Source of the DNA: an uncultured Pseudomonadota bacterium
GTDB lineage: Bacteria; Pseudomonadota; Gammaproteobacteria; Burkholderiales; SG8-39
Direction: 5' to 3'
NCBI GenBank assembly: GCA_903834835.1
Contig: CAILKO010000008.1
Coordinates: forward strand, 1-64,000
Length of the DNA: 64,000 bases
Shown piece by piece: positions 1-56,969 of the stretch. The notes under the pieces were generated by a model. That model was not told where the DNA came from. It made no database searches and saw nothing but the letters and a program-made list of their open reading frames with translations. Position 1 is the stretch's first letter. Each line of letters opens with the position of its first letter. Position numbers and translations under genes: made by a program.

Positions 1-143
1 ATCGTTCGATACGGGTGAGATGTCTGTAGGCCATTTGGGCAACTTTGACTGTGGTGGTTGAGGCGGCTCGGATGCTATGGCATCTCGCCCACCCCCTCCA
101 CGGTTCATCAAACGTTGCACTTAGAAGTTGAATTCACCCTGCT

Positions 144-20842: not shown

Positions 20843-21927
20843 CACCGGAATCAACCTATCCGGGACGCTGGTGGCATGCGTTGCCGGACGGCCGACTCCA
20901 GTGCGATCTTTGTCCGCGCGATTGCCGGTTGCATGATGGACAGCGCGGGCTTTGCTTCGTGCGCCGGCGGGAGGGCGAAGCAATGCTTCTCACGACCTAC
21001 GGACGCTCCTCCGGCTTCTGTGTCGATCCGATCGAGAAGAAGCCGCTAAATCAGTTCTATCCGGGAAGCAGCGTGCTCTCGTTTGGCACAGCAGGCTGCA
21101 ATCTGTCCTGCAAGTTCTGCCAGAACTGGGATATTTCCAGATCGCGCGACATGGACCGCCTCATGGACGAAGCCTCGCCTGCAAAAGTTGCAGATGCGGC
21201 CGTGACACTGGGCTGCAAGTCTGTTGCCTTTACCTACAACGATCCTGTGATCTTCGCCGAATACGCAATGGACATCGCGGACGCGTGCCGGGCGCGCGGC
21301 GTGCAGTCGGTCGCGGTGACGGCTGGTTACATGCACGCGGAGCCGAGGCGCGAATTCTTCGCCAAAATGGATGCGGCGAACGTCGATCTGAAGGCCTTTA
21401 CCGAGGAGTTCTACTACAAGGAGTGCGGCGGCCGGCTTTCGTCGGTGCTGGAGACCCTGGAATATCTCGTGAAGGAAACAGGGGTCTGGATCGAGGTCAC
21501 GACGCTGCTGATTCCGGGCAAGAACGATTCGATCGAGGAGATCGATGCCGAATGCGCCTGGATCGCGCGGCATCTCGGGCGCAACGTGCCGCTGCACTTT
21601 ACGGCGTTTCATCCCGACTGGAAGATGGCGGATATTGAGGCCACGCCGCCGGCGACGCTGGCGCGCGCGCGGCGCATCGCCCAGAAGCACGGCCTCAACT
21701 ATGTGTATACGGGCAACGTGCACGACGCGGAGGGCGGCACGACTTACTGTCCGCACTGCGGAAAGGAAGTGATTGTGCGCGACTGGTATCAGATACGAAC
21801 CTACAGTCTCGACGATGGGGGAGCCTGTTCATTCTGCCGGCATCCGCTGGACGGGCGCTATCAGAAGTTCGAAAAACCCTTCGGCCCGCGCAGAATTCCG
21901 GTCCGCCTCGCGCAGGTGTCGCGCTAG
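20839..21927 (+). CDS. AmmeMemoRadiSam system radical SAM enzyme
   Basis: FGTAGCNLSCKFCQNWDISRSRDMD (CxxxCxxC), N-term CDLCPRDCRLHDGQRGLCFVR; candidate TTG start at 20839 overlapping the upstream stop (inference). Confidence 0.9.
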   Translation: MTPESTYPGRWWHALPDGRLQCDLCPRDCRLHDGQRGLCFVRRREGEAMLLTTYGRSSGFCVDPIEKKPLNQFYPGSSVLSFGTAGCNLSCKFCQNWDISRSRDMDRLMDEASPAKVADAAVTLGCKSVAFTYNDPVIFAEYAMDIADACRARGVQSVAVTAGYMHAEPRREFFAKMDAANVDLKAFTEEFYYKECGGRLSSVLETLEYLVKETGVWIEVTTLLIPGKNDSIEEIDAECAWIARHLGRNVPLHFTAFHPDWKMADIEATPPATLARARRIAQKHGLNYVYTGNVHDAEGGTTYCPHCGKEVIVRDWYQIRTYSLDDGGACSFCRHPLDGRYQKFEKPFGPRRIPVRLAQVSR

Positions 21928-21954
21928 GCAGTCCGAGGGCGAATGCTGCTCATG

Positions 21955-21976
21955 ATAGTAACATTTATGTTACTAT
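21955..21976. promoter_or_regulatory. Palindrome ATAGTAACAT-TT-ATGTTACTAT (GTAAC-N6-GTTAC class)
   Basis: 10-bp perfect inverted repeat in the gap upstream of the 21990 gene; shares its core with sites at 50472 and 55596. Confidence 0.6.
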
Positions 21977-21989
21977 ATCAATACGAAAC

Positions 21990-22517
21990 ATGCCCGGAGG
22001 TCGCTTGAGCGCGCTAGTAGTGCGGAGCTTTGTGCCAGTCTCGGACGCGCGGGCAGAAGTACTGATTCTCGGGAGCATGCCGGGGCGCGCATCGCTTGAT
22101 GCCGGAAGGTATTACGCGCATCCGCGGAATGTTTTCTGGCGCATCCTGGCCGAACTGCTCGGGTTCGACGCGGATGATGCGTACGAGGAGCGAATCCGGG
22201 CGCTTATGTCTGCTCGAATCGCGCTCTGGGATGTGTTGCAGTCCTGCGTCAGAAAAGGAAGCCTGGACACGCGCATCGAGCCCGATACCGAGATCGCGAA
22301 CGACTTCGGGACGTTCTTTCGCGAGCATCGCAGGATCAGACGCGTGTACTTCAACGGCGCGAAGGCTGAATCCTCGTTCGTGCGCCACGTGCGGGACGAC
22401 CGGTATTTCGCATCGGTCAGCTTCGCGCGCCTGCCGTCGACCAGCCCGGCACACGCGGCGATGTCCTTCGAAAGCAAGCTTCGGGCATGGCGTGAGCTGC
22501 TGTCGCAAAACAGCTGA
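21990..22517 (+). CDS. DNA-deoxyinosine glycosylase (uracil-DNA glycosylase superfamily)
   Basis: EVLILGSMPGRASLDAGRYYAHPRNVFWRILAELLG...ALWDVLQSCVRKGSLDTRI...FNGAKA...LPSTSPAHA. Confidence 0.88.
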   Translation: MPGGRLSALVVRSFVPVSDARAEVLILGSMPGRASLDAGRYYAHPRNVFWRILAELLGFDADDAYEERIRALMSARIALWDVLQSCVRKGSLDTRIEPDTEIANDFGTFFREHRRIRRVYFNGAKAESSFVRHVRDDRYFASVSFARLPSTSPAHAAMSFESKLRAWRELLSQNS

Positions 22518-50380: not shown

Positions 50381-50471
50381 GTACCCTCTCCCATCAATGG
50401 CGCTTCTTGGGGCGCAAAAAATTACGACCGGTGCGCGAAGTTCGCGCGCACCCGGCTGGACAGGCGGCACA

Positions 50472-50487
50472 GTAACAGAATTGTTAC
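50472..50487. promoter_or_regulatory. Palindrome GTAACA-GAAT-TGTTAC (GTAAC-N6-GTTAC class) upstream of hppA
   Basis: Read directly in the divergent gap between the 49403..50380 gene and hppA. Confidence 0.5.
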
Positions 50488-50647
50488 CACTCTTCACGGC
50501 CGCAGCGGCCTGTCCGTTCCGGCAAAGACAGGGCGTTCCGGCCGATTCTGATAAACTCCGCGCGCTTTCCAGAGGGGCGACCGGCCGCACCGGCAGGCTG
50601 CGGTCGTGGCTCCGTCTAATTCATACACGAGCAGGGAGAACGAAAAA

Positions 50648-55542: not shown

Positions 55543-55595
55543 GCGCCGCGCCGCTTGCATCCTGCCGAGGTCGAGACAGTGGGGGGGCGGTGTGG

Positions 55596-55621
55596 AGATA
55601 GTAACGTAAACGTTACTATCT
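55596..55621. promoter_or_regulatory. Palindrome AGATAGTAACGT-AA-ACGTTACTATCT (GTAAC-N6-GTTAC class)
   Basis: 12-bp perfect inverted repeat in the ggt/kinase gap, overlapping the histidine kinase stop codon. Confidence 0.6.
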
Positions 55622-56969
55622 ATCCCGAATGCGGCCTGCTTTCTTCCCGGTCGCCGGCCGGGAGCCCGGTGCGCGGCAGACGGATCGTCACCCGCAGACC
55701 GCCGGACGGGCTCCGATCGAGCCTCGCGCTGCCGCCATGGCGCACGGCGATGCGCCGCACGATGGCGAGTCCGAGTCCGCTGCCGCTGATTTCGCGCGCG
55801 ACACCGGGCCTCCGATAGAAACGTCCGAACACCCGCTCATGATCGGCCTCGGGAATGCCCGGCCCGGTGTCCTGGATCTCGATCACGGCATCCTCGTCCG
55901 AACGCAACAGCGAGGCATCCACACGGCCATGCTCGGGCGTGTACTTGAGCGCGTTGTCGATCAGATTTGACACCAGCGTACGCAGGCCCACGGGCTCTCC
56001 CTGAACCTCCAGCGCCTCGCTGCGCGTGATCCCGAGGTCGATATGCCGGCGCTCGGCGAGCGCCGAGTAGTCGCCGATCACCTCGCGCAGCAGGACTTCA
56101 AGATTCACTGCCTCGCGCGTATCCGGCGCTGCAGGGGCCTCGTTTCGGGCGAGCGTAAGCAGCTGTCCGACCAGACGCGTGGCGCGCTCGACGCCGGCCC
56201 GGAGTTCGCCCAGCGCGCGCTTGCGGTCGATTTCGGAGTCCGCGCGTTCCGCAAGCTGTGCCTGCAGCGCGAGCGCGGTGAGCGGCGTGCGCAGCTCGTG
56301 CGCGGCGTCGGCGATGAAGGCGCGCTGTGTCTCGAGCGCCTGGGAAAGTTGCTGCAGCAGCCCGTTCAGCGCGTGGGAAAGCGGGGTGAGTTCTTCGGGC
56401 AGGGCGTGCTCGGGGAGCGGTCGCAGCGATTCCGGTGTGCGACCGCGAACCTCGCGCGCGAGTTCTTCCAGCGGTCGGAGGCCGCGTCCGACCGTAAGCC
56501 AGATAACCACGCCGAGGAGGGGCAACAGCAGCAGAAACGGCCACAGGGTCCGCAGAGCGACGGCCGCCGCCAGCCGGTTGCGCACCGCCTGCGGCTGCCC
56601 GACCTGAATCACGTGGTCGCCCAGGCGCATCGCGAACACGCGCCACTGGCCGTCCTGGGTGCGCACGTTCGCGTAGCCGAGCGGCGCCTGCACCGGCATG
56701 CGCGAACGGGGATGTGAGAAGTAGATCTGCCCGCCCTGGACGCTCCAGATCTGGATCATGGTGTCGAGCCCGTCGGGCTCGACCTCCGGCGCCAGTACGC
56801 CGTTCGCGAAGGCGTGATCGCGCAGCGACAGCGCGGTCTGCTGCAGCTGGTAGTCGAACAGGGCGTTCGCCTCCTCGCGCGCCGCGAGGTAGGTGGACCA
56901 TGCGCCGAGCGCGACCGCGCCGGAAACCCCGCACAGCAGCCAGACCAGCAGGCGGGCGCGGATCGACAT
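55620..56969 (-). CDS. Two-component sensor histidine kinase
   Basis: QRAFIADAAHELRTPLTALALQAQLAERA H-box; LIDNALKYTPEHGRV N-box; IEIQDTGPGIPEADHERVFGRFYR; GSGLGLAIVRRIAVRHGG. Confidence 0.95.
   Translation of the reverse strand: MSIRARLLVWLLCGVSGAVALGAWSTYLAAREEANALFDYQLQQTALSLRDHAFANGVLAPEVEPDGLDTMIQIWSVQGGQIYFSHPRSRMPVQAPLGYANVRTQDGQWRVFAMRLGDHVIQVGQPQAVRNRLAAAVALRTLWPFLLLLPLLGVVIWLTVGRGLRPLEELAREVRGRTPESLRPLPEHALPEELTPLSHALNGLLQQLSQALETQRAFIADAAHELRTPLTALALQAQLAERADSEIDRKRALGELRAGVERATRLVGQLLTLARNEAPAAPDTREAVNLEVLLREVIGDYSALAERRHIDLGITRSEALEVQGEPVGLRTLVSNLIDNALKYTPEHGRVDASLLRSDEDAVIEIQDTGPGIPEADHERVFGRFYRRPGVAREISGSGLGLAIVRRIAVRHGGSARLDRSPSGGLRVTIRLPRTGLPAGDREESRPHSG

Follow-up and report, generated by a model that had tools for sequence, protein, structure and literature searches.

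A near-invariant GTAAC-N6-GTTAC palindrome centres a phased element of about 82 bp at gene ends throughout one bacterial genome

The matS/MatP, SlmA, Noc and parS systems each comprise many dispersed palindromic sites on the chromosome, and each kind of site is read by one dimeric protein. The half-site of matS is GTGAC, with a spacer of 3 bp. REP elements, in one definition given in PMC3733652, are palindromes of 20-40 bp that have a GTAG or CGTC tag on one end, and they serve as landing sites for insertion sequences (PMC1525189). Nearly palindromic hot spots are also favoured as targets by IS30 (PMC9333248). A 2017 survey of spaced motifs described comparable intergenic families without an assigned function (PMC5217627). 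One of these, GCTTAT(N)5AAGCG of Acidovorax ebreus, has 114 copies, of which 94% are intergenic and which generally lie less than 50 bp from gene ends; the gaps that hold it are convergent in 44 cases, divergent in 4 and co-oriented in 59 (PMC5217627). E. coli gyrase recognises a symmetric motif with a GC content phased at ~10.75 bp, and the enzyme is active downstream of transcription units (PMC6379681). The specificity of type II topoisomerases varies among species (PMC12324340).

The window, meaning the whole 64-kb stretch of DNA analysed here (64% GC), contains three copies of the palindrome GTAAC-N6-GTTAC, starting at 21958, 50472 and 55601, against none in 100 dinucleotide-preserving shuffles. 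At spacings from 0 to 24 other than 6, no pair of GTAAC and GTTAC was found in the window. The cores and the elements around them are symmetric and carry no strand. The first core, GTAAC-ATTTAT-GTTAC (21958..21973), sits within the extended palindrome ATAGTAACATTTATGTTACTAT at 21955-21976, exactly where an earlier, sequence-only reading of the window had placed it; the gap that holds it, 21928-21989, is bordered by a radical-SAM gene and a deoxyinosine glycosylase gene. That reading had assigned the site to the ATG at 21990. The site does lie 13-14 nt before this ATG, but it also lies 30 nt past the stop codon (21927) of the radical-SAM gene. The full symmetric element of copy 1 would extend approximately over 21925..22006, its boundaries (centre +-41 bp) being taken from the family consensus, which its arms match weakly. 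The second core, GTAAC-AGAATT-GTTAC (50472..50487), occupies a divergent-type gap upstream of an H+-pyrophosphatase gene, and the same consensus puts its full element at approximately 50439..50520. The third, GTAAC-GTAAAC-GTTAC (55601..55616), is extended to a perfect palindrome at 55596-55621 in the gap 55543-55619 between the convergent genes of a gamma-glutamyltransferase (+) and a QseC-like kinase (-); its element, with the outer block GGCCTGCTTTCTTCCC, would cover approximately 55568..55649. Both recurrences of the core had been reported earlier and were recovered, at 50472 and 55601, and all three copies are non-coding as claimed, with copy 3 extending into the stop codon of the 55620-56969 gene.

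Across the genome (3.37 Mb in 74 contigs, 89% complete), 179 copies of GTAAC-N6-GTTAC were counted, compared with 3 for a reversed-pattern control, and 133 of the 179 have the longer form AGTAAC-N6-GTTACT. The earlier expectation that the core is far above chance is borne out by this count, and its description of a family rather than one duplicated repeat agrees with the fixed spacing, the varied centres and the independent intergenic sites. None of the checked contigs without a listed copy reaches 6 kb, though most of them read as masked letters. The detailed statistics given here come from ~1.18 Mb read directly, about a third of the genome, with home-made gene calls. This portion holds 72 exact copies, and a mismatch search adds only 2 sites that resemble the element; the counts with one and two mismatches were not above those of control words or control spacings. 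Of the 2 near-miss copies, the one at C29:9056 reads GTAACAAAAATTTTAC and has perfect arms, and the one at C52:5970 reads GGAACGTATTTGTTAC. In 807 kb, 72 of the 73 occurrences of the half-site ATAGTAAC are within palindromes. The N6 centre, flanks and arms all differ among copies and show no shared ancestry, and the positions adjoining the core vary freely, position 13 being 75% and position 14 being 47% conserved. Damaged copies would be numerous if a repeat had spread and decayed, and flanks would be alike after a recent burst, but the sequences show neither pattern. On the evidence of this one genome, the ten core bases of each site therefore appear to be kept by purifying selection.

The family is confined to a narrow lineage. 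AGTAAC-N6-GTTACT is present in 0 or 1 copy in each of 97 other genomes of the same taxonomic family (26 genera in all), and by these counts of the word no conservation in relatives was found. The shorter GTAAC-N6-GTTAC was counted in 60 relatives and mostly gave 0-3 copies, with a maximum of 9. Nine copies were seen in G032 and five in G054, the latter mostly centred AATAAC/GTTATT and looking like an unrelated repeat. A scan of GTDB r220 returned six single matches in unrelated phyla, about the background level and repeated in none of the genomes, and viral contigs gave five single matches. De novo palindrome scanning of 200 kb from each of the relatives G020 and G031 found no comparable family. 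Comparison of the orthologous gap downstream of the gamma-glutamyltransferase gene was uninformative, the neighbourhood not being conserved, and a literature search for the word GTAAC-N6-GTTAC found nothing.

The window begins with the left end of an insertion sequence (1..138, minus strand), identified by contig-end comparison, with the inverted repeat ...TTGCACTTAGAAGTTGAATTCACC; its strand is deduced from the coding sequence of the right end. Directly next to this left end is the outer portion of a further copy of the element; the core of that copy lies off the contig. The left end also caps at least 5 other contig ends, abutting the outer block of the element where this is seen, and 15 contig ends finish in the matching right end, which always faces a GTAAC core at 19-20 nt. 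Insertion has occurred at one position and in one orientation, ~27-28 bp from the centre of the element, at 15/15 right ends. The coding sequence at the right end gives ...RLNHRPRKCLGFRTPHEVLF, as is typical of IS30-family transposases, and on this basis the insertion sequence is putatively assigned to the IS30 family. Its interior did not turn up in a family search of the genome, and a search of plasmids with the IS30 end gave no match. Use of a palindromic element resembles the known target choice of IS30, but here the insertion is off-centre and fixed in orientation, and most sites are free of it. A second repeat (ACCGGCATCCCGGCATCCGCCTGCTTCAGG...), probably another insertion sequence, was observed at the starts of contigs C24, C74 and C12.

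The mean distance from one site to the next is 17 kb, with a coefficient of variation (CV) of 0.64, or 0.57 when only internal sites are used. Random placement or random 3' gaps give a CV of 0.81-0.96 (p <= 0.0013 in every comparison), and short inter-site distances are rarer than expected, except in the convergent-only comparison. The sites are thus more evenly spread than random, and they also occur near the parB locus. These properties bear on a first alternative, in which a REP- or MITE-like element, selfish or domesticated, multiplied in the lineage and is now a landing pad for an insertion sequence. The resemblance to REP/BIME elements lies in the high copy number, the extragenic 3' location and the acceptance of an insertion sequence at a fixed place and orientation, as for REPs (PMC1525189), and restriction to one lineage would also be expected. 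Yet a search for the RAYT/Y1 transposase with PF01797 gave no match in the 89%-complete genome, the GTAG/CGTC tag is absent from the consensus halves of the element, and the population of variant and decayed copies that belongs to the REP definition is missing, the 1.18 Mb holding 72 exact copies and 2 near-misses. The core is invariant, flanks, N6 and arms lack common ancestry, and the sites are even rather than clustered. Such an origin is unlikely.

With respect to genes, the placement is strict. None of the 72 copies is coding (intergenic placement p~5e-64); one apparent genic copy, C24:21705, is an artefact of a false antisense ORF, and its true gap is tandem. The TAG of some copies serves as the stop codon of the neighbouring gene. 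Convergent gaps hold 21 of the 52 classifiable sites yet constitute 10% of intergenic bases (p=5e-9), whereas divergent gaps hold 7 of the 52 and are depleted (p=5e-4), and the density of sites per kb is 1.6 in convergent, 0.32 in tandem and 0.15 in divergent gaps. A site is present in 18 of the 53 convergent gaps of 50-200 bp, and in tandem gaps it is usually found 0-60 nt past the upstream stop codon. An over-represented pair with fixed spacing, mostly intergenic, biased to convergent gaps and near gene ends, is also what the motif pairs of PMC5217627 look like, though the sequence and the spacer differ from those of the Acidovorax ebreus motif. The class of intergenic motif pairs is already known and is not new. 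The present family is new in its nearly absolute invariance, in the phasing of its ~82-bp element, in its even spacing and in having a dedicated insertion sequence; an all-or-none core, an ~82-bp phased element, even spacing and targeting by an insertion sequence were not reported for the motifs of PMC5217627.

Location just past stop codons and enrichment in convergent gaps could also point to a protein roadblock or bidirectional terminator that halts RNA polymerase where convergent or tandem units meet. The two-sided symmetry of the element fits a bidirectional stop, and intrinsic terminators are found in few 3' gaps of this genome. Such a function is nonetheless improbable, since only a minority of 3' gaps contain a site, intrinsic terminator-like signals show no significant deficit in the gaps that do, and neither the even ~17-kb spacing nor the seven sites in divergent gaps would be expected from it.

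To describe the anatomy of the element, 55 uninterrupted copies were averaged and folded about their centre. The core proved to be the centre of a two-fold symmetric element of ~82 bp, and not an operator of 16-22 bp. AT peaks occur on both sides near 2, 12, 22 and 32 bp, GC is high near 17-20, 25-28 and 35-41 bp, and C-rich outer blocks lie at +-38-41. The AT/GC phasing has a period of about 9-10.5 bp and reaches about +-43. Its power near 10 bp is 0.12, against a null maximum of 0.019 from random 3' gaps, with no difference between convergent and tandem gaps. The outer T-rich/A-rich blocks in tandem gaps are of equal strength upstream and downstream (3.58 vs 3.21), indicating that the element has no transcriptional direction. 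As an independent motif, the outer block is not specific by itself.

Symmetric ~10-bp AT/GC phasing at gene 3' ends, past transcription units, recalls the gyrase motif and the strong gyrase sites of BIME-2 and Mu, and the specificity of type II topoisomerases depends on the species (PMC12324340). Strong gyrase (type II topoisomerase) sites that clear positive supercoils past transcription units are nevertheless quite improbable here, because the gyrase-like phasing fades near +-43 and not near +-63, and because a ~82-bp element with an invariant core of 10 bases contrasts with a degenerate gyrase motif of ~130 bp.

The pairing between the two arms was analysed as well. Whether position 9 is A or G on one side does not depend on the other side (37 paired, 36.8 expected), a pattern that suits a pair of protein half-sites rather than a base-paired stem. 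At positions 12-24, arm pairing is 5.4 of 13, against 4.2 expected from shuffles, and the excess is driven by a subset of 9/55 copies that are perfectly paired to +-17 or beyond. Long complementary arms, unrelated in sequence and lying outside the core, are seen for example at C29:141500, C25:92154 and C12:2690, and they exceed the expectation from composition. This subset could possibly reflect quasipalindrome correction at replication, or an extra cruciform or terminator role. An RNA-level 3' hairpin, either an intrinsic terminator or a stability element, would draw on the foldable cores, on copy 3 and one other folded stretch that beat shuffles (z = -2.5 and -4.5) and on the covariation of some arms. 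Intrinsic terminators have a GC-rich stem with a T-run directly behind it on the 3' side of the transcript; here the core is AT-rich, no T-run adjoins the stem and the T/A blocks are ~30 bp away. Together with the symmetry in tandem gaps, the weak z of copies 1 and 2 (-1.2, -0.4), the independence of position 9 and the lack of an Rfam match in the window, this makes a hairpin very improbable.

The genes flanking the sites are miscellaneous, including those for radical SAM, deoxyinosine glycosylase, H+-pyrophosphatase, gamma-glutamyltransferase, a QseBC-like pair, transporters, hydrolases and others. The gene next to the C12:2690 site encodes a C5-cytosine DNA methyltransferase with an N-terminal helix-turn-helix (L024:1236-2504). 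A Pfam scan of ~30 promoter-side genes likewise gave a miscellany in which no dedicated regulator stood out, apart from a YbfE-type ribbon-helix-helix protein at one site, whose gene (L049:19026-19298, equal to C29:119026-119298) starts 30 nt from a GTAAC site. A classical transcription-factor operator, for which this one upstream site and the fixed-spacing intergenic palindrome speak, is highly unlikely given the 3'-end and convergent placement, the divergent depletion, the incoherent set of genes and the all-or-none conservation; the promoter operator of a TetR/MarR/GntR regulator suggested earlier fails in the same way, as the sites favour gene 3' ends and convergent gaps. The wider suggestion of a family of protein-binding-type sites is consistent with how the sites behave, and binding is inferred from that behaviour.

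Our preferred account, held with belief and doubt in equal measure, is that the element is the site of a chromosome-scale DNA-bending protein, with ~180 sites per chromosome, and does not regulate single genes. A dimeric or multimeric protein would read the two GTAAC half-sites, which face the same side of the helix at a distance of one turn, and would bend or wrap the phased AT-rich turns that flank the core. Placement in gene 3' gaps would spare coding sequence and promoters, and the likely role would be a nucleoid-associated or domain-boundary platform, or the management of supercoils where transcription units end. A more specific version is tentative: ~180 evenly spaced sites, each forming a wrap of ~82 bp with one lineage-specific bending protein, may mark or insulate topological domains at the ends of transcription units, in a system that is genus-specific, unlike MatP, SlmA, Noc and ParB.

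Several proteins were considered as the binder. The GTGAC half-site of matS resembles the GTAAC found here, but the spacer is 6 and not 3 bp, and a PF06303 search of the genome gave no match to MatP, which was rejected because the protein is absent. An extra ParB/Noc-type protein was also rejected, since only one ParB was found, with its own parS-like palindrome 3.5 kb away that differs in sequence from the GTAAC core. The YbfE-type protein is a weak lead, coming from an examination of ~35 promoter-side genes. It has the strand LMPFATKLE where relatives have LVPFAVKLN, that is, two substitutions in the predicted DNA-contact strand, and it is present in about half of the family. The absence of MatP and the single ParB with its own site count against a platform, as do the 9/55 long paired arms, which a plain dimer site does not predict. 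Restriction to one genus counts against it too, as it implies that ~180 sites were gained or lost quickly.

The resident IS30-family element provides a natural case of a transposase confined to a safe and defined target. If the inference of a DNA-bending protein holds, a chromosome-wide system of sites was built or replaced within one genus, with a recognition word that can be read directly, and the cognate protein could be fished out. A role of evenly spaced gene-end sites in setting supercoiling domains in bacteria could then be tested, and the family would offer a handle on the unexplained intergenic palindromes of Acidovorax and others.
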